Virus record (IMG/VR): IMGVR_UViG_3300046376_000044
Location: 1-37,393 of that record
DNA length: 37,393 nucleotides
Strand: one strand, 5' to 3'
DNA from: a virus
A model generated the notes under the pieces. The model worked only from the letters and a program-made list of their open reading frames with translations, had not been told where the DNA came from and ran no database searches. This document shows, one piece after another, positions 2,977-32,562 of this stretch. Every line of letters starts with the position of its first letter. Within the stretch, counting starts at the first letter, position 1. The position numbers and the translations under genes were made by a program.

Positions 2977-3459
2977 TCAGATTGTGATTTGCTGGTCGCC
3001 GACATAGACCTCGATCTGGCGCGGCGGACCGTCGTCCGTTAAATCGCTGCAATAGGCCTTGATGGCAGGCGCATTGATCTCGGTGCCAGCCAGATAAGTG
3101 AAGCGGGCGACCTTGTTGGCGAAGTCGTATTCCTGCGTCAGCAATCCGGTTTCTATCGTCGGCTGTGCTTCCAGCATGGTACGGAATTTGCCGCCGCCAA
3201 TTACATTATTCCAGCCGATATGCTTTTGCTTGCGATACTGCCATTCCATCTTCGCAGCTTCGAAGCGGGTGAGATTTTCGGCCATAACCGTATAGAGGTG
3301 GTCGGGAGGGATGCGCCTGTCGTTTTGATGCTCCCTCTTGCGGCCCTTGCGATGGGTGATCCCGATACGACCTTGCGTGAACGGATCGGTGTGTTCTGGC
3401 AAGTGGAGCCAGTACACGCTGTGTATCGACTCCAGATCAGACGGTTTCTGCTTCGGCAT
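2977..3459 (-). CDS. GIY-YIG-like nuclease
   Basis: A 160-residue protein. VYWLHLPEHTD (about 15-25) and GRIGIT (30-35) match the GIY and YIG strands of the GIY-YIG fold in divergent form. Further on, EAAKMEWQYR followed by IGWNNVIGGG (about 68-90) matches the catalytic-Glu helix and the RP-x-IGWN-xxGG segment seen in phage GIY-YIG proteins. The family cuts DNA, either as free-standing homing endonucleases or as host- or rival-directed nucleases. The ATG at 3459 overlaps the upstream TGA (TGATG); a GTG one codon upstream (3462) is an alternative start. The fold is assigned by motif. Confidence 0.55.
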   Translation of the reverse strand: MPKQKPSDLESIHSVYWLHLPEHTDPFTQGRIGITHRKGRKREHQNDRRIPPDHLYTVMAENLTRFEAAKMEWQYRKQKHIGWNNVIGGGKFRTMLEAQPTIETGLLTQEYDFANKVARFTYLAGTEINAPAIKAYCSDLTDDGPPRQIEVYVGDQQITI

Positions 3460-3995
3460 CACGCGGCCTTTCTCGCGACCGCTTCGGCGACCGCACTCTC
3501 GATATTGGCGCGGTAGCGGTTGCGGCCTTCCTCGACCGACATCCAGCGCCAGTCATCGCTATCGCCGTTGCGCTTGATGCGCTCGACCGCGAATGACAGC
3601 TTCAGCGACTTGGCCAGCGCCATGAACTTGTCGCCGGGCTCACGAGCCTCGTCCTTCTCGACGCGAGCCTTGACGCGCTTGAGCGCCTTGAGCATCGCCG
3701 TCAGCTTGGCTTCGCCAGCGGAATGGACATCGCGGAATTCGATGTCGGCACCGATGAAGTCTGGTTCGCGGAATTCGCCATCGCTGACAAAGCCGTACAT
3801 GCCGAGACCATCGACCACGAGGCCGAGCATATGCTTAGGACAGCCGTAGCCGAGGAAATTGTCAGCGTCGCTGGGGCAGCCGACCGGGTGATCGTACCGA
3901 TCCTCGCGGCGCGCGACTCGCACCTCGACATATTCGGTGCCGTAGCGGTTGACCCGCTCGATCAGCAGGCCGTATTGGTCGTCGGGTTTCGTCAT
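3459..3995 (-). CDS. Hypothetical phage protein, 178 residues
   Basis: A soluble protein with a compact N-terminal half (VGCPSDADNFLGYGCPKH at about 38-55) and a highly charged, Lys/Arg/Ala-rich helical C-terminal half ending AVARKAA. The start ATG follows CCAAAGGAGAACC, a good ribosome-binding site. It overlaps the downstream GIY-YIG-like gene by one base (TGATG), so they are coupled. I do not recognise a family. Confidence 0.6.
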   Translation of the reverse strand: MTKPDDQYGLLIERVNRYGTEYVEVRVARREDRYDHPVGCPSDADNFLGYGCPKHMLGLVVDGLGMYGFVSDGEFREPDFIGADIEFRDVHSAGEAKLTAMLKALKRVKARVEKDEAREPGDKFMALAKSLKLSFAVERIKRNGDSDDWRWMSVEEGRNRYRANIESAVAEAVARKAA

Positions 3996-4306
3996 TGGTT
4001 CTCCTTTGGGGCGGTGGCGGCCACTCGCTCGTCGATCAGCGGTTTGAAGTGGGCGCAGAATCCAAACCCGAGCTTTACATGCTCGTCGTGAACTTTCTGG
4101 AAGGCCGCTTTGAACACAGGCTCTGGCATATCTTCCAGCGCCGCCGTAATCCCGGCCATCAGCAGGGGCGGCAGTTTGGCGCAGAAACCGTCATAGGCAG
4201 TCGTCAGCACGAAAGCGTAGGCGCGGGGATCAACGTCGTCGGACAGCGCGGGCGATGCCGCGAACATCGCGCTCAATAGCGCGACGGTGGTGAGCAGTTT
4301 TTTCAC
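3992..4306 (-). CDS. Small exported protein, 104 residues
   Basis: The signal peptide MKKLLTTVALLSAMFAASPA is followed by a mature helical domain of about 82 residues with two cysteines (C43 and C84) and no further membrane segment, so a periplasmic location is expected. The start is a GTG (4306) that overlaps the TGA of the gene before it (4305-4303, GTGA) and follows GGAG. Function is unknown. It is the first exported product of the long leftward operon starting at the promoter near 4507-4534. Confidence 0.6.
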   Translation of the reverse strand: MKKLLTTVALLSAMFAASPALSDDVDPRAYAFVLTTAYDGFCAKLPPLLMAGITAALEDMPEPVFKAAFQKVHDEHVKLGFGFCAHFKPLIDERVAATAPKENQ

Positions 4307-4488
4307 GTAACATTCTCCTTCAGTGCGCGCGGGATGCGCTCCTCGATTTCGGTGTCGGTCAGGTCTTTCAGCAGCACGAGGCAAGTGCCTTGGCGGTAGA
4401 CCATGATCGAGCGTTCGCCGTTGAGCTTGCCCTTGTAGTCACGGTGCGTGTGCTTCCAGACGATCTTCAGTTTCTGTTCGCGGGTCAT
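4303..4488 (-). CDS. Small basic hypothetical protein, 61 residues
   Basis: It begins MTREQKLKIVWKHTHRDYKG and ends in an acidic-then-basic helix (DTEIEERIPRALKEN). The ATG at 4488 is supported by GGGGAAGGAAAAGAC just upstream; an earlier in-frame ATG (4518) lies inside the promoter and would not be transcribed. It is the first gene after promoter-operator 1, separated by a leader of about 15-20 bases. No family is recognised. Confidence 0.6.
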   Translation of the reverse strand: MTREQKLKIVWKHTHRDYKGKLNGERSIMVYRQGTCLVLLKDLTDTEIEERIPRALKENVT

Positions 4489-4506
4489 GTCTTTTCCTTC
4501 CCCTCT

Positions 4507-4534
4507 AATATAGGCCATTATGGCCTATGATCAA
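4507..4534 (-). promoter_or_regulatory. Promoter-operator copy 1 (ATAGGCC-N5-GGCCTAT)
   Basis: On the minus strand, a -35 TTGATC (4534-4529), a 16-base spacer and a -10 TATATT (4512-4507). The inverted repeat ATAGGCC (4510-4516) N5 GGCCTAT (4522-4528) fills the spacer and touches the -10, so a bound dimer would block RNA polymerase. It drives the gene at 4488 and probably the whole run down to position 1. Confidence 0.75.
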
Positions 4535-4545
4535 GGGACGCATTC

Positions 4546-4988: not shown

Positions 4989-5153
4989 TCAGACCTTTTC
5001 GACAGAGGTTAAGCGCGTGATGGGGATCATCACGCAGTGACCGTTGAGCGCGATGTAGGCGTCATAGGTCGGGCGATAGTTGAACCAGAGAGGCGCGACG
5101 ATATCGCCGCCGTTACTGGTCCGGATTCGGACGATGGTGCCCTTGGCAATCAT
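4989..5153 (-). CDS. Small hypothetical protein, 54 residues
   Basis: A short beta-rich protein starting MIAKGTIVRIRTSNGGDIVA, reminiscent of a small barrel, with the end MIPITRLTSVEKV. A very strong ribosome-binding site (GGAGGAGG) lies 9-10 bases before the ATG. That site is embedded in the last codons of the 27-residue gene upstream, so expression of the two should be linked. No family is recognised. Confidence 0.55.
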   Translation of the reverse strand: MIAKGTIVRIRTSNGGDIVAPLWFNYRPTYDAYIALNGHCVMIPITRLTSVEKV

Positions 5154-5156
5154 GGC

Positions 5157-5240
5157 TTAGGCCTCCTCCGGGTAGGCAGCGCCCTGAAAGAACGCCTCGA
5201 CTAACCAGTTCAGAACCTTGTTGACCAATTTCAAAAACAC
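5157..5240 (-). CDS. 27-residue amphipathic mini-protein
   Basis: GTG start (5240) with AAGGAGATCCCCC before it, encoding MFLKLVNKVLNWLVEAFFQG plus AAYPEEA. Hydrophobic residues recur every 3-4 positions, giving an amphipathic helix with basic residues at the N-terminus. The codons for PEEA form the GGAGGAGG ribosome-binding site of the next gene. It could be a real membrane-active or toxin-like peptide, or a leader peptide for translational coupling. It is the first gene after promoter 2, with a very short leader. Confidence 0.45.
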   Translation of the reverse strand: MFLKLVNKVLNWLVEAFFQGAAYPEEA

Positions 5241-5264
5241 GGGGGATCTCCTTTCCACTCCCCT

Positions 5265-5293
5265 TATATAGGCCAAAACGGCCTATACGTCAA
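5265..5293 (-). promoter_or_regulatory. Promoter-operator copy 2
   Basis: Minus-strand -35 TTGACG (5293-5288), 17-base spacer, -10 TATATA (5270-5265). The inverted repeat ATAGGCC (5268-5274) N5 GGCCTAT (5280-5286) lies in the spacer. This is a near-consensus sigma-70 promoter. It drives the three small genes from 5240 down to 4546. Confidence 0.8.
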
Positions 5294-5297
5294 GGGA

Positions 5298-5822
5298 TCA
5301 TAGAGGAGATTTTGCGAGGTTCGCCCTGACCTTGGCCAGCAGTTCCGGGTGGCCGTGGCTCAGCACCGCGACCTTCTTGGCCATCTCGGCCAGATAGCCC
5401 TTGGCGAACTCAGGATCGTGTTCAGCGACGTTCGACGAGTTGTCGGCCATGTCGGCCAGCTTGATCGATGCGCCCTCATAGGACGCGCCAGCCAGATGGT
5501 TAACGACGGCGGCCTTGCGAGCGGCCCTGTTGCCGGGTTCCTTGGGGATCTTGGGGTTGGTCACCTCGACCACCAGCGCGGCGACCTTGGGGCTGAATTC
5601 AGCCGCCAGTACCTCCGGGCCGATGTGGGTATCCTCGACCACGTCATGCAGGAAGCCCGCCGCGACCACCTCCGGGCCGAAGCCCAGCGCGGCCAGCGAG
5701 CCTGCGACACGTTCGCAATGGCTGACATAGGGCTCGCCCGACCACTTACGGACGACGCCCGCGTGCGCCATGGCGGCAAACGACAGGGCCTTCTTGACTA
5801 ATTCGTGTTCCAATAACTCCAT
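5298..5822 (-). CDS. MESH1/SpoT-like HD-domain hydrolase, candidate (p)ppGpp hydrolase
   Basis: A 174-residue stand-alone HD protein. H35 (YVSHCERVA), H59-D60 with E63-D64 (LHDVVEDT), and D124 with N128 (KLADMADN) match in order and spacing the metal and alarmone-binding residues of the Rel/SpoT hydrolase domain and its small MESH1-type relatives. These remove the 3'-pyrophosphate from (p)ppGpp (MESH1 also acts on NADPH). There is no synthetase domain. It is the only gene between promoters 3 and 2, so it is a single-gene unit under the shared operator. A general HD nucleotidase role remains possible. In a phage it could relieve growth arrest or counter alarmone-type toxins; this is inference. 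Confidence 0.75.
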   Translation of the reverse strand: MELLEHELVKKALSFAAMAHAGVVRKWSGEPYVSHCERVAGSLAALGFGPEVVAAGFLHDVVEDTHIGPEVLAAEFSPKVAALVVEVTNPKIPKEPGNRAARKAAVVNHLAGASYEGASIKLADMADNSSNVAEHDPEFAKGYLAEMAKKVAVLSHGHPELLAKVRANLAKSPL

Positions 5823-5844
5823 AACTACTTTCCTGACAGCCCCT

Positions 5845-5873
5845 TATATAGGCCGAAATGGCCTATATGTCAA
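5845..5873 (-). promoter_or_regulatory. Promoter-operator copy 3 (consensus -35)
   Basis: Minus-strand -35 TTGACA (5873-5868), 17-base spacer, -10 TATATA (5850-5845), with the inverted repeat at 5848-5854 and 5860-5866. Outer arms CCCCTT (5840-5845) and AAGGGG (5872-5877) extend the dyad. It is the best sigma-70 match of the six and drives the HD hydrolase gene at 5822. Confidence 0.8.
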
Positions 5874-5895
5874 GGGGTTGCGAGGGGCGGGTTCC

Positions 5896-6111
5896 CTAGA
5901 GTTCCGACAGCGCCAGCAGGCGCTCAAGCTGCCGCCCCATGGCGACGTATTGCTGAATCGCCTGCGCCGTGGCGGGCAACTGGCGGGCCTTCTCGATGTC
6001 CTTGAACATCAGGAGCGCATCGCGGACCGCAGCGGCCAGCGGGGCCAGTCCCTTGATCGCGGCGCGGTGTCCGGCGTCATAGCCATCGGTGTACATTTCG
6101 TTGGCGCTCAT
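5896..6111 (-). CDS. Small helical hypothetical protein, 71 residues
   Basis: It begins MSANEMYTDGYDAGHRAAIKG and is almost wholly alpha-helical, with a Leu/Ala-rich second half. The YDAGHRAAI segment resembles small phage helical proteins, but no family is assigned. The ATG at 6111 follows GGAGCGACCA, 7 bases downstream of the GGAG. It is the last gene of the unit driven by promoter 4. Confidence 0.55.
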   Translation of the reverse strand: MSANEMYTDGYDAGHRAAIKGLAPLAAAVRDALLMFKDIEKARQLPATAQAIQQYVAMGRQLERLLALSEL

Positions 6112-6122
6112 TGGTCGCTCCG

Positions 6123-6350
6123 TTAGAGTTGTTTGCCGAGGATCAGCCCGACCGCATGGCGCGAGACATAGGCTGCGCCGCCGTGCGAAAAATCGATCAT
6201 GGTGCTGCCAGCCTCCAGCCACGAGCCGGGGTCCGCCTCGTTGCCGGTGTAGAACACCAGCCGGTGGCCGCCGATGGCGCTGACGCGGCAGAACATGCCG
6301 GACTGCCGGGCATAGGCGCGGGCGCGGTTGGTCTCGATCATGTGTGTCAC
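6123..6350 (-). CDS. Small hypothetical protein, 75 residues
   Basis: It starts at a GTG (6350) after GGAGTAATC; an ATG three codons downstream (6341) is an alternative. The sequence (MFCRVSAIGGHRLVFYTGNE, then a region with IDFSHGGAAY) is mixed beta/alpha and soluble. It lies two bases after the stop of the coiled-coil gene at 6353. No family is recognised. Confidence 0.5.
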   Translation of the reverse strand: MTHMIETNRARAYARQSGMFCRVSAIGGHRLVFYTGNEADPGSWLEAGSTMIDFSHGGAAYVSRHAVGLILGKQL

Positions 6351-9256: not shown

Positions 9257-9285
9257 GATATAGGCCAAAACGGCCTATGCGTCAA
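9257..9285 (-). promoter_or_regulatory. Promoter-operator copy 6, in the divergent early/late intergenic region
   Basis: Minus-strand -35 TTGACG (9285-9280), 17-base spacer, -10 TATATC (9262-9257), with arms ATAGGCC (9260-9266) and GGCCTAT (9272-9278). It drives the gene at 9227. The same stretch lies only about 40 bases before the plus-strand capsid gene, so a protein bound here could affect both directions. I see no good plus-strand -35/-10 pair in this gap. Confidence 0.75.
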
Positions 9286-9321
9286 GGAATCGTATCTGCA
9301 TTTTTCGCGGAGGTTCCAGCC

Positions 9322-11427
9322 ATGAAGAAGAACGGCGACGGCGATGGCGATATCGACATCGCGCCAGAGGACGACGAGAGCTTCGACGATTTCATGGAGC
9401 GCTGCATGGACGCGACTGACGGTGACGACTTCACCTGTCAGTTGGCGTGGGACAATCGCGCCGCCAAAGCCGTCGTCCACAAGACCCACGTCTCACCGGG
9501 CCACGGCGTGGAATTCATCCTGTCGGACGCAACGCCGGACCGCATGGGCGACGTGATCGAGGCCGATGGCTGGGATCTGGAAGATTTCAAGAAGAACCCG
9601 GTCGCGCTGTTCAACCACCGCTCCGATTTCCCGATTGGCAAATGGGCCAACCTTCGCATCGTCGATGGAAAACTGCGCGGCCATCTGCAGCTCGCCAAGG
9701 AGGGAACGTCTGAGCGGATCAACGAGATCAGGTCGTTGGTCGAGCAGGACGTCCTGCGCGCGGTCTCGGTTGGCTTCCTGCCGATTCAGTCCGAGCCGCT
9801 GACCAAGGGCAGCGGCGGCTCCCGGTTTCTCAAGTCCCGGCTGGTCGAGACATCGCTGGTCTCGATCCCGGCCAATCCGAATGCACTCGCGGTCGCCAGA
9901 TCGCTCAACATTTCCCGCGACACCGTCGCAATGGTCTTTGCCGGGCAAGGCAATTCAAAAGACCGGAGCGTGGAGCGTCGCGGTTTCAACGGCGGGCAAG
10001 CCGAAAATCCTCCTGTACGAAAGAACAGGATCATGTCTCCCCTCACGAAACGAATTGAAGATACCCAACAGCGGCTGGTCCGCTTGCGCGACGAACTGAC
10101 TGCACATCTGGAATCCGTTGACGACGAGAACGTCACCGACGCCGATCTCGCGACAACGCAGGAGTTCAACAAGAAGATCGCCGATCAGGAAACGGCGCTT
10201 GCCGCGCTGAAGGACTCCGAGTCGAGGCTGGCGAAGACCAGCGGCGATGGCAATGGCGGTAGCACGACCCACACCGTCATCACCAAGACCGGCGAACGTC
10301 GGCCGTTCTCGCTCAAGCCGAAGACGATGGAGCCGATTGAGTTTCTGGTCCGCGCCGGTACGGTCCGCGCGCTGGCCCGCTCGATGGGCATTTCCATCGA
10401 CGAGGCTCGCGTCAAAGCCTACGGCGATGACGAAGCCACCAAGATGGTCTGCGACCTGACCCTCAAGAATGCGGTTTCCCCGGCGATGACCACGGTCACC
10501 GGCTGGGCCGCCGAGCTGGTGCAGCAGATCGTCACCGATCTGATGCCGACCTTGCTGCCGTCTTCGGTCTACCCGTCGCTGTCGGCGATGGGCCTGAAGC
10601 TCTCCTTCGGCCGCAACGGCCGGATCATCATCCCGACCCGCAACGTGACGCCCTCCGTCGCCGGATCGTTCGTCGGTGAAGGCCAGCCGATCCCGGTTCG
10701 CATGGCGGGATTCTCCAGCCAGACGCTCACGCCGAAGAAGATGGCCGTGATCTCGACGTGGACCCGCGAGATGGATGAACACTCCATCCCGGCGATTGAG
10801 GGTCTGCTTCGCGAGGCCATTCAGCAGGACACGGCAATCTCCATCGACACGATTCTGCTCGACGTCAACCCGGCGACGGCCATCCGCCCCGCCGGTATCC
10901 GCAACGGCGTCGCTGGTCTGACGCCCACCGCAGGCGGTGGCTTCAATGCGCTCGTCGGCGATCTCAAGGCACTGACCGGCGCGATCCTGACCGCGACCAA
11001 CGGCAACATCCGCAACATGGTCTGGATCATGAACCCGCAGCAGGCTCTGAGCATTGCGTTCATCCAGCCTCCGGTGCCGGGCGGGCTGTTCCCGTTCGCG
11101 GCGGAAATCAACGCCGGTCGCCTGAACGGTCGTCCGGTGATCCAGTCGGGCACGGTGCCGGTCGGCGTCGTGATCTGCATGGACGCAGCGGACTACGTCT
11201 CGGTGGCGGGCGATGCTCCGCGATTCGAGATTTCGGATCAGGCCACGCTGCACATGGAAGACACCAACCCGTTGCAGCTCGCAGCGGCTGGCACCCCGCC
11301 GGTCGTCGCGGCACCCGCGCAGTCGATGTTCCAGACCGACTCGCTCGCGCTGCGGTTGATCCTGCCGCTGAACTGGACGGTCCGCCGTGCTGGCGTCGTC
11401 TCGTGGGTTGCTGGCGTGACGTGGTGA
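9322..11427 (+). CDS. Prohead protease-major capsid protein fusion (HK97 type)
   Basis: A 701-residue fusion. Residues about 50-195 are an HK97-type (S78/U35) prohead protease, with the catalytic triad likely H99 (LFNHR), S149 (AVSVGF) and E176 (LVETSLVSIPANPNA). A linker (200-237) leads to a coiled-coil scaffold-like delta segment (238-305), then an HK97-fold major capsid domain (about 325-701). The protease cleaves scaffold segments during head maturation; the capsid domain forms the shell. The ATG at 9322 follows GGAGG; an earlier ATG (9277) sits in the operator. Met 238 (10033) could be an internal start for a capsid-only product. Separate protease and capsid genes are more usual. Confidence 0.9.
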   Translation: MKKNGDGDGDIDIAPEDDESFDDFMERCMDATDGDDFTCQLAWDNRAAKAVVHKTHVSPGHGVEFILSDATPDRMGDVIEADGWDLEDFKKNPVALFNHRSDFPIGKWANLRIVDGKLRGHLQLAKEGTSERINEIRSLVEQDVLRAVSVGFLPIQSEPLTKGSGGSRFLKSRLVETSLVSIPANPNALAVARSLNISRDTVAMVFAGQGNSKDRSVERRGFNGGQAENPPVRKNRIMSPLTKRIEDTQQRLVRLRDELTAHLESVDDENVTDADLATTQEFNKKIADQETALAALKDSESRLAKTSGDGNGGSTTHTVITKTGERRPFSLKPKTMEPIEFLVRAGTVRALARSMGISIDEARVKAYGDDEATKMVCDLTLKNAVSPAMTTVTGWAAELVQQIVTDLMPTLLPSSVYPSLSAMGLKLSFGRNGRIIIPTRNVTPSVAGSFVGEGQPIPVRMAGFSSQTLTPKKMAVISTWTREMDEHSIPAIEGLLREAIQQDTAISIDTILLDVNPATAIRPAGIRNGVAGLTPTAGGGFNALVGDLKALTGAILTATNGNIRNMVWIMNPQQALSIAFIQPPVPGGLFPFAAEINAGRLNGRPVIQSGTVPVGVVICMDAADYVSVAGDAPRFEISDQATLHMEDTNPLQLAAAGTPPVVAAPAQSMFQTDSLALRLILPLNWTVRRAGVVSWVAGVTW

Positions 11428-11954: not shown

Positions 11955-13406
11955 GTGGCAAACTTCCTCTCGCGGATCTTCCGCCCTCTCGTCGCGAAGG
12001 CGGCAGAGGGCGAAGTCCGGCCCGGTCCATACAATCTGCCGGTGACCGGCGGCTGGTTGCCTGCCGGGTCGTCGTGGAATTGGTGGCAGGAAGGCATCAT
12101 CCCAGAAACGCTTGGCGGCATGGACAGCTCGGCGATGGTCGAGGCCTGCTTGTCCGCCTATTCGCAGACCGTGGCGATGTGCCCCGGTGATCATTGGCGT
12201 CTCAACGACAAGGGTGGCCGCGACCGCGTCACGACGTCGTCTCTGTCGCGCGTTCTGCGCAAGCCAAACGCTTACCAGTCGCCGTCCGACTTCATGCTGA
12301 ACCTGACCCGTTCGCTTTATGCGGAAGGCAATGCCTATGCGCTGGCGCTGCGCAACGAGCGCTACGAGATCGACGAATTACACTTGATGGACCCGCGCCA
12401 GAGCTGTCCGCAGATCGCGGTTACTGGCGATGTGTTCTATTATCTCGGCGGCAACAGCGTCATCGACCGACAGGTCAAAGAGCAGTTAATTGTGCCGCAG
12501 CGCGACGTTCTACACGTCCGCCTCAACGCGACGCGACGTCGCTACCCGTTCCCGCTGGTGGGCGACACGCCGCTCGGCGCGGCGCTGCAGGACATCGCGA
12601 TGTCTGACGCGATCACGCGGCAGCAAATCCAGTTCTACATGAACCAAGCGCGGCCGAGCGCCGTGCTGACCACCGACCTGATCCTCGACAAGGATCAGGT
12701 CCAGTTCATCCGCGACCGCTGGGACGAGCAGTCGAAAGGCCTGAAGGCGGGCGGCACGCCGATCCTGACCGGCGGCCTGAAACCGCAGATGCTCGGTTCA
12801 ACCTCCAAGGACGCCGAGCTGGCCGACATCATGAAGATGACCGAGCAGCGCATCGCACTGGCGTTCCGGATACCGCTGCAGATTCTCGGGCTCGGCGGCA
12901 CGCCGTTCGGATCGACCGAGCTGTTGATGCAGTCGTGGATCGCGTCCGGTCTCGGCTTTGCGCTCAACCATATCGAGGACGCTTTCGGCCTGCTGTTCAA
13001 TCTCAAGGGTCAGCCCGACGAATATGTCGAGTTCGACACCAAGGCGCTGTTGCGCAGCGCGTTCAACGTGCGGATCGCGGCGCTGGCGCAGGCGGTGCAG
13101 GGCGGCATCTATTCGCCGAACGAGGCCCGCGCCGAGGAGAGCTTGCCTTCGGTGAAATTCGGCGACGAGCCGCGCGTGCAGCAACAGGTCGTGCCGTTGT
13201 CGGCAGCCGGGGCAATCCCCGCATCACCGGGCGCTCCGGGTGCGCCGCCTCAACCGGGCGTGGCCGCATTGCCGCCGCCGGACAAGCCGGTGAAGACGCC
13301 GCCAGAGGAGAAGCCCATTCCGGCGAAGGACTACAGCGATGTCGTTGCAACCGAACTTCGAAACATCCTCGCACGCGCCGACCATTATGACCGAAGCAAC
13401 GCTTGA
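11955..13406 (+). CDS. Phage portal protein (HK97 family)
   Basis: A 483-residue portal, starting at a GTG six bases after the previous stop. Family features include the N-terminal ...[20 protein letters not shown] segment (around residues 56-75), [15 protein letters not shown] (about 116-130) and [19 protein letters not shown] (about 296-314). The C-terminal tail is Pro-rich and disordered. Portals form the dodecameric DNA-entry vertex and connect to terminase and the neck. The usual upstream neighbour, terminase, is not present; here the portal follows the capsid gene. Confidence 0.9.
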
Positions 13407-14847
13407 CGCACTGCGCGATGCACTCGGTCAGGTCATCTCAAGCCACCGCAGGCAGTGGGAGCGCGAACGTGAACTGATCGAGGCGCAGGCACGGGCATCG
13501 GTGGCGGAGCTGCGGGCACAGGTCGTCGAGCTGCGCAGCGTGCTGGAGAAGATGGTTGGCGAGAAACTGGCCAGCGTGCGCGACGGTGCGCCGGGCGACA
13601 AAGGCGACCGTGGTGAAGCCGGTGAACGCGGTGAGCAGGGCCTGCCCGGCGAGATCGGCAAGCAGGGCGAGATCGGCGAGCGCGGCCTGTCCGGCGAGAA
13701 AGGCGACAAGGGAGACCCCGGCGAGAAGGGTGACAAGGGCGACCCCGGCGAGAAAGGTGATTCCGGCGAGCGCGGCACCGATGGTGCGCCCGGCCGTGAC
13801 GGCGTGGACGGCAAGGATGGCGAGTGCGGTCCGGCTGGTGAGAAGGGCGAGAAAGGCGACAAGGGCGACGCTGGCGAACCCGGTCCGGCGGGAATGCACG
13901 GCAAGGACGGCGAGCCCGGCCCGATAGGTCTCAAGGGTGATCGCGGCGAGCGCGGTGAACGCGGCTTGCAAGGCATTCCCGGTGCAGTCGGCAAGACCGG
14001 CGACGTCGGCCCCCGTGGCGAGCGCGGCGAACAGGGCCTGCCCGGTGTCAGCGTCAGGGGCGACCGTGGTCTGCCCGGCGAGCGCGGTGAGCGTGGCGAG
14101 AAGGGCGACCGTGGCGAGCGCGGCGAACCGGGCCTGACGGTCAAGGGAGATCCCGGCGAGCGCGGTGAACGCGGTGAGAAAGGCGACCGTGGCGAGGCGG
14201 GCCTGTCGATCAAGGGCGAGCGCGGCGAGCGTGGCGAACGCGGACTGCCGGGTGAAATCGGCAAGATGGGATTGCGTGGCGAGCCGGGTTTGCCCGGCGC
14301 ACGCGGTGAGCCCGGTCAACCCGGTGAGCGTGGCGAGCGCGGCCTGACGGGAGCGCTGCCGCGCGTCAAGGTCTGGGAGCCGGGCGTCCATTACGCCAAC
14401 GAGGTGGCGACCGCTGACGGCGCGACCTATCAGGCGGTCCGCGACACGGCGGAGCAGCCGGGCAAAGGCAAGGACTGGGTTTGCCTCGCGCGTGCGGGCA
14501 TGGACGGTCACTCGGTCGAAGTGCGCGGCCTGTTCAGCGACAAGGAAATTTACAGGGCGCTCGACATCGTCGCGCTCAACGGCGGCAGCTTCATCGCCAA
14601 GCGGGATGACCCCGGACCGTGTCCCGGCGCTGGCTGGCAACTGATCGCGAGCCAAGGCAAGCGCGGCGACAAGGGCGAACGTGGCGAGCGTGGGCTGCAG
14701 GGCATTCCCGGCACAACGCCGCTGATCGTCAAGTGGCTGGTTGATCCCGAAAATTTCGTCGCGACGCCGGTTCTGTCGGATGGCCGCGAGGGTGAGCCAC
14801 TGCCGATGCGCGGCTTCTTCGAACAATTCCATCAGGAGATGCGGTGA
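13339..14847 (+). CDS. Collagen-like protein with chitin-binding-type modules, in the head module
   Basis: A 502-residue protein. Residues about 20-80 are a coiled coil (likely trimerisation), 83-338 are near-continuous Gly-X-Y triplets rich in GERGE/GDKGD with small breaks (VSV, LTV, LSI), and 345-387 and 400-440 are two tandem modules with the CBM5/12-like pattern [10 protein letters not shown]...GKGKDW and [13 protein letters not shown]...GAGW. A short second collagen block (440-458) and a terminal domain follow. The ATG at 13339 has AAGGA upstream but overlaps the portal by 68 bases; ATG 13387 is the alternative. Its position between portal and connector suggests a head fibre or neck appendage rather than a tail fibre. 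Confidence 0.7.
13585..14352 (+). repeat. DNA encoding the Gly-X-Y collagen-like tract
   Basis: About 768 bases of imperfect 9- to 18-base repeats built from GGCGAGCGCGGTGAG- and GGCGACAAG-type units, all in frame. Such tracts change length by slippage or recombination in multiples of nine, so repeat number may vary between related phages. Confidence 0.8.
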
Positions 14848-15470
14848 TGGCCGATGTCACGGTCAAGATCCTGACGCCTGCAACCAGCTTTGCGCTGATG
14901 ACGCTGGACGAGCTGAAGACGGCGCTTGCCGCTCCGACCGGCACGCAAGCCAGCGACGACCAATGGCAATGGTTGATTGATGTCAACTCCGCGACGATTT
15001 CGGAATTGTGCAACCGCGTGTTCGCCAAGGAGGAAGTCGAGGAGACGTGGCGCGACGTTCAGAACGGGCAGAGAATCTATCTGTCGCATTACCCGGTTGT
15101 CGCGACCGACATCGAGAGCGTCACCACCAACGGCGGCGACAGGCTCGACTATGAGCTGGAGGAAACGTCCGGCAAGCTGCAGATCTTCACCAACTGGGTA
15201 GAGCCCGTCGTCGTCACCTATACCGGCGGCTTCGACTTGCCGGACGATGCGCCGATGCCGCTGAAGCAGGCGCTGACGCTGCTGGCGGCGACGTGGAAAG
15301 CCCAACTGGCGATGGTGCAAGTGACCGGCGTCCGCATGATCGCGCACAAGGAAGCGCGCGTGATGTTTCACACGCCAGCCACGATCAACCCCGGAGCTGG
15401 CGGCGCGCATCCCGGCATACCACCCGCCGTCGATACGATCCTGTCGCAGTACACGCGGTTCTGGGTCTGA
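14847..15470 (+). CDS. Head-tail connector protein (HK97 gp6-like)
   Basis: A 207-residue protein. The N-terminal helix segment TSFALMTLDELKTAL, DDQWQWLIDVNSATISELCN and the beta-rich middle with VVVTYTGGFDLPDDAPMPLKQA match the adaptor (gp6/gp15-like) proteins that bind under the portal. The ATG (14847) overlaps the preceding TGA as TGATG, and AGGAGATGCGG precedes it. Position directly after the portal region fits. The C-terminal HTPATINPGAGGAHPG is an extension. Confidence 0.7.
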   Translation: MADVTVKILTPATSFALMTLDELKTALAAPTGTQASDDQWQWLIDVNSATISELCNRVFAKEEVEETWRDVQNGQRIYLSHYPVVATDIESVTTNGGDRLDYELEETSGKLQIFTNWVEPVVVTYTGGFDLPDDAPMPLKQALTLLAATWKAQLAMVQVTGVRMIAHKEARVMFHTPATINPGAGGAHPGIPPAVDTILSQYTRFWV

Positions 15471-16897: not shown

Positions 16898-17584
16898 ATG
16901 GTCGATGTGAAGACCGAGACCAAGACCAACCACAGCCACAATTCCAAGCCTGTCAATCCGCGCCAAGCCATCCGCGAGGCGCGTCAGCGTCGGCTGCGCG
17001 TTATCACGGCGGGCAAGGCATCAACCATCAAGGTCTACGCCGCCAACGACGTCATGCGGGAAGTGCTGCGCCATCCCGGTAGTGGCACGCGCTTCCGGGA
17101 CACGCTCGAACAGCCGGTGGAGTGGCCGAACGACAGCTTCACCGCGCGCCGCATCGCGGATGGCTCGGTGCGGACCGATGGGCCGGGCTCCGGTGAGCCG
17201 GTGGCCGACAACGAGTCGCTCAACCCGCGCCAGCAGTCGGCCGCGCGCTACGGCAGGAGCGCAATTGGAGAGCGCGTCAATGCGACGTTGCGGCTCGCCT
17301 CTCTCTCCCCGAACACCGCCGTCTCCGGGTCAGAAGACCTCGTGATGGCTTGCATCGGCACCGGATTCACCCCGGACACGGTCATCAGATTTGGTGACTA
17401 CGACGAGCCGACCACATTCGTCTCCGCGACCAAGGTGACGACCGGAGTGAAGCCGTCGCTCTTCGCGCCCGCCGTCGTGCCGGTGCTGGTCCATACCGCG
17501 ACCGACTCTTCGGAGCCGATTAACTTCACCTTCACCGCGACCGCAGAGCAGACGAAGGCACCGAAGCCGAAACCGGCGGCCTGA
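16898..17584 (+). CDS. Virion-associated protein with IPT/TIG-like domain
   Basis: A 228-residue protein. A basic N-terminal region (NPRQAIREARQRRLRVITAG) and a middle section are followed by a C-terminal domain (about 135-205) with the IPT/TIG immunoglobulin-like pattern: GTGFTPDTVIRFGDYDEPTT, FVSATKV, then VVPVLVHT. The tail is a Lys/Pro/Ala linker. Ig-like domains on virions often bind surface sugars. It precedes the tail sheath, so it could be a tail- or neck-surface decoration. Family call by pattern only. Confidence 0.55.
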   Translation: MVDVKTETKTNHSHNSKPVNPRQAIREARQRRLRVITAGKASTIKVYAANDVMREVLRHPGSGTRFRDTLEQPVEWPNDSFTARRIADGSVRTDGPGSGEPVADNESLNPRQQSAARYGRSAIGERVNATLRLASLSPNTAVSGSEDLVMACIGTGFTPDTVIRFGDYDEPTTFVSATKVTTGVKPSLFAPAVVPVLVHTATDSSEPINFTFTATAEQTKAPKPKPAA

Positions 17585-27887: not shown

Positions 27888-28649
27888 ATGACCGACCGTC
27901 ACGTCCGAAGATCCGGCGACGACTACGGCGACGCCTTCCTGTCGCTGTTGCCGCAAGGGCAGGCATGGCCGAAATATCCCGGCACGACGCTCGATCTCGC
28001 CTGTCGCGGCCTCGCCGAATACTGGGGCTATGTCGATGGCCGGGCCGCCGACTTGCTGGAGACCGAGAGCGACCCGCGCAAGACCGTCGAGTTGCTGCCG
28101 GACTGGGAGCGCAATTGGGGACTGCCTGATCCCTGCTACGAGGCTCCGGTTGGCATAGCGGCGCGGCAGCTCGCGCTGGTCATGCGGATGACGATGCAGG
28201 GCGGGCAGTCGCGCGAGTTCTTCATCGAAGTGGCCGCAATGATCGGCTACACGATCACCATCACCGAGTATCGCGTCTTCGTCGTCGGTCTCGATGGCTG
28301 CGGGGATTGTCGCGTCTACGGCGACGGCTCAGACCCGATGTACAATGAGTGGGGCCAGCCGATCAAAAACCCGATAGGCGAGAACGTCGCGCTCGACGAG
28401 CTGTCGGAGTGGCCGAACTACGGCATCGGCCCACCGGAAAACCGCTTCTACTGGACGGTGCATGTCCATCAGGCGTCGCTGAACTGGTTTCGCTGCAGCA
28501 AGAGCGAATGCGGTGTCGATCCACATTTGCGCATCGGCACCGCTGCGGATCTTGAGTGCATCCTCAATCGCTGGAAGCCCGCGCACACGCAAATCATCTT
28601 CGATTATTCCGGACTTTCATCCGGCGGCGATATGGCCGGGACGCCATAA
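27888..28649 (+). CDS. Baseplate/tail protein Mu gp48-like (YmfQ/DUF2313 family)
   Basis: A 253-residue protein with LLPQGQAWP near the N-terminus (about 19-27) and LLPDWERNWGLPDPCYEAPV (about 72-91), both hallmarks of the YmfQ/DUF2313 family. The C-terminal half holds several cysteines (DGCGDCRVYG, CSKSECGVDPH). It links baseplate J to the tail fibres. The ATG (27888) follows the previous stop by a few bases. Confidence 0.8.
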   Translation: MTDRHVRRSGDDYGDAFLSLLPQGQAWPKYPGTTLDLACRGLAEYWGYVDGRAADLLETESDPRKTVELLPDWERNWGLPDPCYEAPVGIAARQLALVMRMTMQGGQSREFFIEVAAMIGYTITITEYRVFVVGLDGCGDCRVYGDGSDPMYNEWGQPIKNPIGENVALDELSEWPNYGIGPPENRFYWTVHVHQASLNWFRCSKSECGVDPHLRIGTAADLECILNRWKPAHTQIIFDYSGLSSGGDMAGTP

Positions 28650-28728
28650 GCGTCGAACCACCTCAACCGTTTTTGTTGGCCTGACACTCGGCGACCCATC
28701 GTTCGCCTTGGAGAGAGGAATCGCGTCG

Positions 28729-30024
28729 ATGCAATACAACCAGCCGTATGGAATTACAGACCCTAACGCGCCCTACATCAATGGCAATCCATCGACCGGC
28801 ACGATGGGCTCGATTCCGCCTGCGGCATCGATTGAGTATCCGCAGCGCGAGATCGTCAACTTCATCACCGACGCCTCGCTGGTGCCTGACAACGCCGATC
28901 TGCATCAGGTCGCGAAGTCGGTGCAATCCGGTCATGTGATCTACGGCATCGATAGTGGCGCGGTGAACCTCGTCTCGATTGCGCTGACGCCTGCGCTGGC
29001 CGCCTATATCGACGGCATGTTCGTCTGGGTGCGCGTCGCGATCACCAACACCGGCCCGGCGGTGTGCAGCATCAATGGACTTGGCGGCCGGAACATCGTG
29101 CGACGCGGCGGTGCGGTGCTGCAAGCGGGCGATTTGCCGGGCGGCTTCATGTCGCTGCTCGTCTACAACGGACCGCACGGGAATTTCGAGCTGTACGGCG
29201 CATCCTACGCGCCACAGACAGGTCAGCCGATCCTTGGTGCGAATAGCAACCTCTACGTCAACGGCACGACCGGCGACGATTCGCTGTATGACGGCACCGC
29301 GCCGACCAACGCCACGCCGCCGCATGGTCCGTTCAAGACCATCCAGCGCGCGATAAACGAAACCTACAAGTACGGTCCTTCGGTCTACACGATGACGATC
29401 AACATCGCTGCGGGCACGTATCCCGAAGCTCTTCATACCGTAGGCGTTATTGGGCCAACCATCATCTTCAACGGCGCTGGCATCACGCAGACCTTCGTCA
29501 CCGGAGCCAACAATGCGCACACCTTTAACGTCTCTACTGCCAACACTTGGATGGTGCAGAACCTGTGCGTCTCGACCGGCACCGGCACCGGGCCGCCATG
29601 CTGTTTCACATCGTCCAGTGGTGCCTCAATCTACACGAACAACTGCGCTTCTGGCTTTTGCATGTATTCGATCTGGGAGGCTTACACTGGCTACGTCTAC
29701 CCCAGCAACCATACCTTCAACGCTGGCAGCTCATGCACCTATGTGGTCGCGGGCTTCTTCAACGGCTTCGTCGGTTTCCAGCAGGACATCGTCTGGACCT
29801 TCTTGGGCACGATGACCGTGAACGGTGCGTTCGCCGCTGTTAGCTCTGGCGGCACCATGTCGGTGCCGGTGCCGCACACGCCCGTCTTCGTCAACCCCAG
29901 CTTCGTGAACGGCATACGGTTTACGTCCGTCGTTAACGGCGTGATCAACACGCAGGGGCTTGGCATCAACTTCTTCCCCGGCACGCAGCCCGGAGGAACT
30001 AACACAGGCGGCCAATACGTCTGA
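28729..30024 (+). CDS. Tail fibre protein with beta-helix-like body
   Basis: A 431-residue protein. The N-terminus (PYGITDPNAPYINGNPSTGT, then GSIPPAASIEYPQREIVNFI) is a baseplate-attachment adaptor typical of alphaproteobacterial phage fibres. The body has NSNLYVNGTTGDDSLYDGTA followed by GPFKTIQRAINE, the start of a pectate-lyase-like right-handed beta-helix, with regular strands after it. Such fibres bind or cut surface polysaccharide. ATG chosen for GAGAGAGGAATCGCG. An 80-base gap precedes it with no gene seen. Confidence 0.75.
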   Translation: MQYNQPYGITDPNAPYINGNPSTGTMGSIPPAASIEYPQREIVNFITDASLVPDNADLHQVAKSVQSGHVIYGIDSGAVNLVSIALTPALAAYIDGMFVWVRVAITNTGPAVCSINGLGGRNIVRRGGAVLQAGDLPGGFMSLLVYNGPHGNFELYGASYAPQTGQPILGANSNLYVNGTTGDDSLYDGTAPTNATPPHGPFKTIQRAINETYKYGPSVYTMTINIAAGTYPEALHTVGVIGPTIIFNGAGITQTFVTGANNAHTFNVSTANTWMVQNLCVSTGTGTGPPCCFTSSSGASIYTNNCASGFCMYSIWEAYTGYVYPSNHTFNAGSSCTYVVAGFFNGFVGFQQDIVWTFLGTMTVNGAFAAVSSGGTMSVPVPHTPVFVNPSFVNGIRFTSVVNGVINTQGLGINFFPGTQPGGTNTGGQYV

Positions 30025-30039
30025 CAAAGGGGATAGAAA

Positions 30040-30639
30040 ATGCCACTCATGTTCAACCCGAAGGACTGGTACTGGTCCGTCGCTGGCGATGCCGCCAACG
30101 TCTACTCGTCGGCGCGCAACATCTACGTGCCGACCAGCGACAGCGATTATGCGACGTGGCAGACCAACACCGGCATCACCACGGCACCAGCAGTCACCAG
30201 TGAGGCCGACATCTGGCCCTACTTTCAGGACTTCATGCCGCTCTATCTGTGGGACTCGGTCGGCAAAACAATGTCGCAACCCGCAGTGGGCGCGTACACA
30301 AAGCAGCAACTGCAGAATTACAACTCCAACTCGCGCATCACCAACGTCGGCAAGGGCATGACGGCGGCGGGCGTTCCGGTCAGGACCGACGACATCTCGC
30401 GCGGCCTGATCACCGACGCGCGCTTTGCCGCGCAGCAAGACCCGAATTGGACAACGAAGTGGTACGGCTCGGATGGCAACTTCTATCCGGTCGATGCGCC
30501 AACGATGATCAATATCGCGAAGCTGGTCAGCGACCACACCAACAGTTGCTACCTCGTCTTTCAACAGACCGCTGACGCGATTACGACCGACGCTGTCACG
30601 GACATTTCGCAGATCGACGCGGCATATTCGGGGCTGTAG
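30040..30639 (+). CDS. Fibre-associated protein, DUF4376-like C-terminus
   Basis: A 199-residue protein. After an N-terminal region (MLFNP-like start MPLMFNPKDWYWSVAGDAAN), the second half (DARFAAQQDPNWTTKWYGSD, NFYPVDAPTMINIAKLVSDH) fits the DUF4376-type pattern found in fibre-assembly and short fibre proteins. It lies between two fibre genes. Role as chaperone or minor fibre component is inferred. Confidence 0.5.
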   Translation: MPLMFNPKDWYWSVAGDAANVYSSARNIYVPTSDSDYATWQTNTGITTAPAVTSEADIWPYFQDFMPLYLWDSVGKTMSQPAVGAYTKQQLQNYNSNSRITNVGKGMTAAGVPVRTDDISRGLITDARFAAQQDPNWTTKWYGSDGNFYPVDAPTMINIAKLVSDHTNSCYLVFQQTADAITTDAVTDISQIDAAYSGL

Positions 30640-30643
30640 AGCG

Positions 30644-30988
30644 ATGGCAACGGTCAACATCACCGTGGCGAACGATGCGGACTTCTTCCGCAGCTTTCTC
30701 TATCAGACGATCAGCGGCGATCCGGTGGACCTGACCGGCGCGGCCTTCGTCATGATGGTGCGAAGGCACGCCAAGGACAATGTCGCCTATCTGTCGCTCT
30801 CCACCGAGACCGGCGAGATCGTCATCACTGATGCGCCGGGCGGCAGCTTCACCGTGCTGATCACGCAGCAGCGGCTCGAAGAGATGACCACCGGATCTTA
30901 CGACCAGTCGCTGGTGATGACGCTCAACGGCGTCAAGCAACAGCTCTGGTCCGGCCAACTCACCATCAATCCCGGACCGTCGCGATGA
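30644..30988 (+). CDS. Small beta-rich tail-fibre-region protein, 114 residues
   Basis: An all-beta sequence ([20 protein letters not shown], then [19 protein letters not shown], and [14 protein letters not shown]). It resembles the small N-terminal beta-sandwich domains of baseplate/fibre adaptors such as BppU. It overlaps the following collagen-like fibre gene by ATGA, so it may be the adaptor for that fibre. Family by fold pattern only. Confidence 0.5.
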
Positions 30989-32562
30989 ACGATCTTTCAA
31001 TCGCCCAAGACTTCAACGTGACCGGCGACGTCGAGATTATTCAGGACACCGCTGCCCTCATCATTTCGCCGGATCAAGGGCCGCCCGGTGCGCGTGGCAA
31101 CTCCGTACTCAACGGCCCGAACGATCCGTTGAACAGTGTCGGTGTCGATGGTGATTTTTACATCAATACCGAGACCGACAAGTTTTTCGGTCCGAAGACG
31201 AACGGCGCATGGCCCGCAGGCCAGTCGCTGGGTGGGCCGATGGGTCCGCAAGGGCCGCAAGGGCCGCAGGGCGCAACGGGTACGCAGGGGCCGAAGGGTG
31301 ACACGGGTCCGCAGGGACCGCAGGGAAACACGGGTGGGCAGGGTCCGGTAGGACCGCAGGGCGCTCCGGGACCGCAGGGGCCGCAGGGTGCCAAGGGCGA
31401 CACCGGCAACACGGGGCCGCAGGGTCCGAAGGGCGACACGGGCGATCAGGGCATTCAGGGGCCGGTGGGGCCTGTGGGGCCAGCAGGCACGGCCTCCGTC
31501 ATCGTCTCCGATACGCCGCCAACGGGTGTGGCGGACTCTGTCCTTTGGTGGGAATCGGACACGGGTCTTTTATATTTTCGCTACAACGACGGCACCTCGA
31601 CGCAATGGGTGATCGCAGCGCCGCAGCCTGACACGACAGGCTTCCTGCAAAAGGCTGGCGACACCATGACGGGGCCGCTCGTGCTGGCCGCCGATCCAAC
31701 TGCGCCGCTGCAGCCCGCGACCAAGCAGTACGTCGATAATAGAGCGGTTCGCTACGACGCCGCGCAGGGACTGACAGCAGCACAGCAGGCGCAGGCGCGC
31801 GTCAATGTCGGCTCCGCTGCTTCATTCAACTGCGGTCGCCTGACCTATGTCAGCGCAACCCAGATCATGTTCGCGCCATACAACGGCGACAGCATTCGGA
31901 TCGCGGGCGTCGCATACCAAATTCCATCTGGCGGCGTGGCCGCCGCGAACACTGGTCTCACCGGCTCGACACGTTACTACGTCTATGCCTTCATCAATGC
32001 GGGCGCGCTGACGCTGGAGCTGTCGGCCACGGGTCATGCCACCGACACCACTGCCGGGAACGTCGGCACCGAAATAAAGAACGGCGACCCGTCGCGAACA
32101 CTGGTTGGTATGGTCTGGTGCCTAGCCGGAACGCCCGGCACGTTCGCCGACACGCCAGTGAACCGCTTCGTCCGCACTTGGTTCAACCGTCAGCGCATGG
32201 CGTTGCGCGGGAACCCAAGCGGCAGCAATGTTGTTCTCGGCACCTCCGCAGCAGAGATTTCATCGGCGATGCGCCTCTTCTGGGTTGGCTGGGCCGATGA
32301 TGTGGTGCAGATCAATGCGAACACGTTTTATTATGGCACCACCGCAGGCTCCATCATCAACTTTACAATCTATTACGATGGGTCCATCGCCGCTCCTAAT
32401 TCTTCAGTGGCAAATTCGACCGGGGGTGGCCAAGTTCTTCCACTGCCGGTTTCGGATGCCCTTACCCTAGCTGAAGGAATGCACTACGCGACCGTGTTTG
32501 GCTCGAACAGCAGCGGATCGGCAAGTGCTTATAACTCATTTCAAACTGGCGTCGTGGGGTAG
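30985..32562 (+). CDS. Collagen-like tail fibre
   Basis: A 525-residue fibre. The N-terminus (1-80) includes [16 protein letters not shown], residues 84-168 are Gly-X-Y of the [12 protein letters not shown] type, then a fibre shaft with [20 protein letters not shown] (about 233-252), and a C-terminal beta domain (from about 275) with an [12 protein letters not shown]-like section. Collagen-like triple helices stiffen trimeric fibres. ATG 30985 overlaps the previous TGA (ATGA). The GPQ style differs from the GER/GDK style of the head-module collagen, so they probably arose separately. Confidence 0.75.
31234..31488 (+). repeat. DNA encoding the GPQGPQ collagen-like tract
   Basis: About 255 bases of in-frame 9-base units of the form GGGCCGCAA/GGTCCGCAG. 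Like the tract in the head module, it should vary in length by multiples of nine. Confidence 0.75.

Follow-up and report, generated by a model that had tools for sequence, protein, structure and literature searches.

A collagen-like fibre gene with two CBM5/12-fold modules in the head gene cluster of a myovirus: a candidate neck fibre

Why does a soil phage encode a collagen-like fibre among its head genes when it also has a set of tail-fibre genes? The locus that raises this question lies in the virus record IMGVR_UViG_3300046376_000044, the entire IMG/VR sequence of which (37,393 nt) is called here the window. On its plus strand, an open reading frame (ORF) of 502 aa at 13339-14847, the fibre gene, is located between the genes for the portal protein and the head-tail adaptor Ad1. 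An earlier note on this DNA had proposed a head or neck fibre able to stick to chitin or other glycans. We think it probable that the gene encodes a trimeric, flexible fibre belonging to the head module, most likely mounted on the neck in the portal/Ad1 region, and that its part is auxiliary, in adhesion or as a whisker. Mounting on the capsid surface appears less likely than on the neck.

The reading frame is open throughout, and an AAGGA stands 8 bases 5′ of its ATG at 13339 (by eye). The encoded protein consists of a helical N-terminus, a long Gly-X-Y region, two modules with the fold of carbohydrate-binding modules (CBM) 5/12, a second short Gly-X-Y stretch (14656-14709) and a C-terminal domain of 46 aa (14707-14844). 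The charged helical segment at the N-terminus (residues 17-82; 13387-13584) has a median identity of 50% to that of the window across 42 relatives, and its sequence and conservation point to a probable trimerising coiled coil.

Pfam Collagen (PF01391) matches the protein with an E value of 4e-45, and the protein has the long Gly-X-Y repeat of collagen-like proteins. The shaft spans 257 residues (83-339; 13585-14355), in agreement with the approximately 255 residues of collagen noticed earlier, and its longest uninterrupted run is 156 residues compared to no more than 27 in any of 2000 residue shuffles. The repeat is interrupted three times, always by a GxxxxG break of similar sequence: GVSVRG (236), GLTVKG (265) and GLSIKG (288). 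This break motif is seen again in relatives. A collagen triple helix rises 0.286 nm per residue; the shaft, if triple-helical, would be about 73 nm long. An ORF of 464 aa on the minus strand (13438-14832) covers the same bases, and we read it as a by-product of the repeats.

The position of the gene is constant. In the window, the plus-strand head genes are arranged as a fused prohead protease and major capsid protein (9277-11427; PF04586, PF05065, phrog_617), an unknown gene, the portal gene (11955-13406; PF04860, E 2.7e-62), whose last 68 bases are shared with the fibre gene, the fibre gene itself and Ad1 (14844-15470; phrog_442, E 1.5e-22). Relatives were collected in two ways: the C-terminal 167 residues of the fibre retrieved 30 IMG/VR loci and two bacterial genomes, and a portal scan retrieved 80 loci, 50 of which reach through Ad1. 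The fibre gene sits between portal and Ad1 in all 50 of these contigs, and in 64 of 64 when the loci found by the C-terminus are added. The order is identical in a Bradyrhizobium genome, that of Bradyrhizobium sp. SRL28 (L003; L numbers denote loci), and in the related prophages L109 and L110. The more distant prophages L121 and L128 have a portal gene, a fibre with one module and a gp6-like connector.

The lineage is abundant among viral sequences: a fibre relative is encoded in 597 of 600 IMG/VR stretches with the portal pattern, among the matches listed. Among 391 genomes sampled in the family to which the Bradyrhizobium genome belongs, 7 have a strong match (E <1e-40), and in a class-wide sample a match at E 1e-15 occurs only in that Bradyrhizobium genome (1 of 385). 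A class-wide survey using single modules gave almost no matches, and a plasmid search no match to the fibre. In a set of 50,697 phage records, the whole protein matches only collagen; the modules of a more distant member find weak tail-fibre matches there. Among the papers searched, we found none on a collagen gene in this portal-Ad1 position.

Two relatives, L026 and L065, differ from the window in tail type. Both share with the window a homologous major capsid protein, portal, fibre gene and Ad1. Neither has Hc1 or a sheath; instead, the next genes encode a phrog_807 major tail protein and a tape measure, with a pre-tape-measure protein in L026 (Pfam match). Judged by these genes, both tails are non-contractile, and the tail genes of the window find no match in the sequence fetched from either record. 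The fibre gene thus goes with the head genes across the change of tail in the two records checked. Because the order is constant and the gene is kept when the tail type differs, we assign the fibre gene to the head module; it is not encoded with the tail or baseplate genes.

The modules themselves show no sign of swapping, as far as sequence divergence can tell. Across 46 non-redundant relatives, the distances between modules rise with those between portals (r 0.76, compared to r 0.80 for Ad1 against portal), and the median divergence of the modules (0.45) is lower than that of Ad1 (0.56).

We next consider what the modules may do. An AlphaFold2 model built on an alignment of 23 relatives has a predicted local distance difference test score (pLDDT) above 90 across most of module 1 (residues 342-387; 14362-14499) and module 2 (residues 391-438; 14509-14652). 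In this predicted model, module 1 resembles the chitin-binding domains of chitinases C and B and aligns with chitinase C (1wvv) at a VIA-align Z of 8.0 and 1.8 A over 45 residues. Module 2 aligns with a tail fibre of cyanophage A-1(L) at Z 6.3 and with Milano gp124 at Z 4.8. Both predicted modules therefore have the CBM5/12 fold, as the earlier note had suspected. Pfam CBM_5_12 matches 19 of the 23 relatives (best E 3.5e-6) and does not match the protein of the window at E 0.1, and a PDB sequence search found no significant match of the fibre to any solved chain. The phrog_1289 'portal' profile is matched by the module in 12 relatives.

CBM5 domains bind chitin by an exposed Y-W or W-W pair (PMC8449059). 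With the register fixed by the A-x-x-x-T motif, the CBM5 motif A-x-[YW]-W-T corresponds mostly to A-x-[RKC]-D-T in the fibre family. The pair is mostly [RKC]-D in module 1 and [RK]-D in module 2, with R-D in both modules of the window; the second position is Asp in 46 of 46 relatives in module 1 (Asp30) and in 42 of 46 in module 2. Not one of the 46 relatives has an aromatic residue at either pair position of either module, while the Tyr and Trp of the fold core are retained. Thus the fold is shared with the chitinase domains of ChiC and ChiB (Z up to 8.0) but the fibre modules lack the aromatic pair used for binding. Because this pair is absent and the modules are not exchanged as receptor-binding tips are, we see no support for binding to chitin, and the modules would not be chitin binders in the CBM5 manner. 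They may bind a glycan other than chitin.

Each module also has one conserved Cys, at residue 382 (14482-14484; 36 of 46 relatives) and at residue 428 (14620-14622; 45 of 46), the latter within the module 2 motif PGPCPGxGWQ. The two may form a disulfide. The C-terminal domain is modelled as beta-beta-alpha with a pLDDT of 91 and has no confident PDB match. No PDB match exceeds Z 3.4, and the best one, a small trimeric fungal lectin, is within noise. In L033 the C-terminal domain is apparently duplicated (4994-5134).

The shaft varies far more. In the 46 non-redundant relatives, the Gly-X-Y region that precedes the modules is 42 to 345 residues long, with a median of 196. Elsewhere in the family, L004 and L032 have a shaft built of another repeat type, L113 has no collagen before the modules, and in L113 and L114 the shaft is nearly absent. 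The subclade of L026 and L065 has additional genes between portal and collagen/CBM gene. For example, the N-terminal coiled-coil segment is found as a stand-alone ORF (L093:2109-2507, L104:4029-4427), L072 has an S74-chaperoned fibre gene (3249-4541) and L104 a fibre with a T4 gp9/10-like N-terminus in the same slot (5170-6333). A fibre-like gene is likewise inserted 5′ of the collagen/CBM gene in L065 (8032-10119).

Similar modules are also found outside the fibre. L129, a locus in a genome of the same family as the Bradyrhizobium genome, has an S78 prohead protease ORF (742-1665) with a CBM5/12-like module fused at its C-terminus. L119 (1510-1944, minus strand) and L122 (1327-1659) have ORFs of 110-144 codons consisting of a helix and one CBM5/12-like module, the one in L122 directly 3′ of a ClpP-like protease ORF.

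Several observations weigh against a head or neck fibre, and some of them favour a second tail fibre, attached to the tail or baseplate, whose gene lies in the head cluster by chance. The whole protein matches mostly tail-fibre families among PHROG profiles (phrog_5073, phrog_6320 and others), though largely via the collagen part, and the top Foldseek PDB matches are tail fibres of the Agrobacterium phages 7-7-1 and Milano. The fibre-type genes placed in the same slot by one subclade (S74 chaperone, T4 gp9/10-like) could be tail fibres. In addition, the Sp5 collagen fibre ORF67 is encoded among head genes and located at the tail end by immuno-electron microscopy (PMC5155283); because of this case, gene position is no proof of location. 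In 22 myovirus relatives, divergence of the C-terminal part of the fibre is correlated with that of the sheath (r 0.81) no less than with that of the portal (r 0.73). Because the sheath correlates equally, we dropped co-divergence as a discriminator of head from tail and use it only to show the lack of swapping. Finally, the C-terminal 167 aa have no match in the 50,697 phage records, and we found no isolate or virion proteome of any relative. Nevertheless, the fibre gene stays with the head genes when an unrelated non-contractile tail substitutes, and a dedicated tail-fibre cluster is already present 3′ of the baseplate genes, so we regard a misplaced tail fibre as unlikely.

If the protein were a head fibre binding chitin or a chitin-like glycan through its two modules, this would account for the predicted CBM5/12 fold and the Pfam matches in relatives, and the capsule-binding head spike fibre of RcGTA (PMC10218006) offers a parallel. 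We consider this reading improbable given the missing aromatic pair in both modules and the invariant Asp of module 1, as well as the absence of swapping. Moreover, the carbohydrate module of the A-1(L) neck fibre does not bind its host (PMC10966104), and the modules of the 7-7-1 long fibre lie within the residues that anchor it to the baseplate (PMC12796354). Of the earlier proposal, the head or neck assignment is therefore supported by the gene order and the relatives with non-contractile tails, and sticking to chitin or glycan is not supported. There is similarly little chance that the protein acts chiefly in the assembly or structure of the portal-neck region, with the C-terminal modules docking on portal or Ad1 and the shaft secondary. 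The modules and C-terminus are indeed the most constant part, kept in L113, L114, L004 and L032, Asp30 is invariant, and the prohead protease of L129 has a module fused to it; but none of the 46 non-redundant relatives has fewer than 42 residues of Gly-X-Y, which suggests that reach matters.

Among known systems, the capsid decoration protein SPP1 gp12 is also a collagen-like head protein, predicted to be a trimer and suggested to act in host adhesion (PMC7602432). It binds the centres of hexamers, and that review reports no CBM-fold modules for it, whereas the fibre gene here lies between portal and Ad1. Phage phi29 gp8.5 is another precedent (PMC7602432). Long neck fibres are found in contractile phages: A-1(L) gp82-gp81-gp80, XM1 gp40 and T4 fibritin (PMC10966104, PMC10457771). 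Those of A-1(L), about 100 nm long, bear a distal carbohydrate-binding module, but no collagen is mentioned and their genes are far from the other structural genes (PMC10966104). The XM1 gp40 collar spike has an Ig-like anchor domain (PMC10457771). The RcGTA spike fibre is head-mounted on an alphaproteobacterial phage-like particle and N-terminally anchored; no collagen is mentioned (PMC10218006).

The 7-7-1 and Milano tail fibres (PDB 9rkv, 8fqc) likewise bear CBM5/12-like modules in tandem, and these too contain the A-x-R-D motif. Their modules, however, are near the N-terminus of a baseplate-mounted fibre, and the sequence match is weak (E ~0.1). The 7-7-1 long fibre is anchored to the baseplate by its residues 1-120 (PMC12796354); the stretch that resembles the modules, at approximately 29-120, is inside this region.

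Taken as a head-module fibre, the protein could work as follows. We infer a trimer, a place on the virion and a role in adhesion. The N-terminal coiled coil would register the three chains, and we assume by analogy that this end attaches to the virion. The Gly-X-Y part would fold as a triple helix, giving a shaft roughly 70 nm long that is hinged at its three interruptions, and the conservation and fold of the two modules and C-terminal domain suggest a knob that caps and holds the trimer. As proposed for other head or neck fibres, the fibre may keep the virion near, or properly oriented at, the cell surface, or act like a whisker. More tentatively, the portal-Ad1 slot could be a dedicated fibre locus in a large soil-phage lineage with Bradyrhizobium-like hosts. 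There, a non-chitin-binding CBM5/12-fold knob would dock to the neck and carry collagen, other trimeric repeats or exchangeable fibres, whatever the tail type; we find this broader scheme somewhat doubtful.

The remaining plus-strand genes identify the phage as a myovirus. Ad1 is followed by an unknown gene, Hc1, another unknown gene, a TIG protein, sheath, tube and a tail protein, and then by a probable tape measure, baseplate hub and wedges, and the tail-fibre cluster (28513-32562). The second collagen protein seen in the earlier note (30985-32562) is indeed part of this cluster. The set is poorly conserved among relatives: for example, the C-terminal part of the tail-end collagen fibre (286-525) is matched in 1 of 16 records searched, most of which are virus records and possibly fragments. 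The cluster also encodes a tail protein (28513-30024) whose weak match is pectinesterase-like (beta-helix) and which could be a tailspike of the depolymerase type. In the neck region, the TIG (Ig-like) match of the protein at 16898-17584 is in its C-terminal half; many relatives match the N-terminal part alone, which suggests that the Ig-like part is optional.

Head and neck fibres are known from only a few model phages. If our interpretation is true, phages of a very common soil lineage have a collagen fibre as a fixed feature linked to the head, and adhesion gear would be inheritable with the head instead of the tail. CBM-like modules in phage proteins would then be taken as glycan binding only after their binding residues have been checked.
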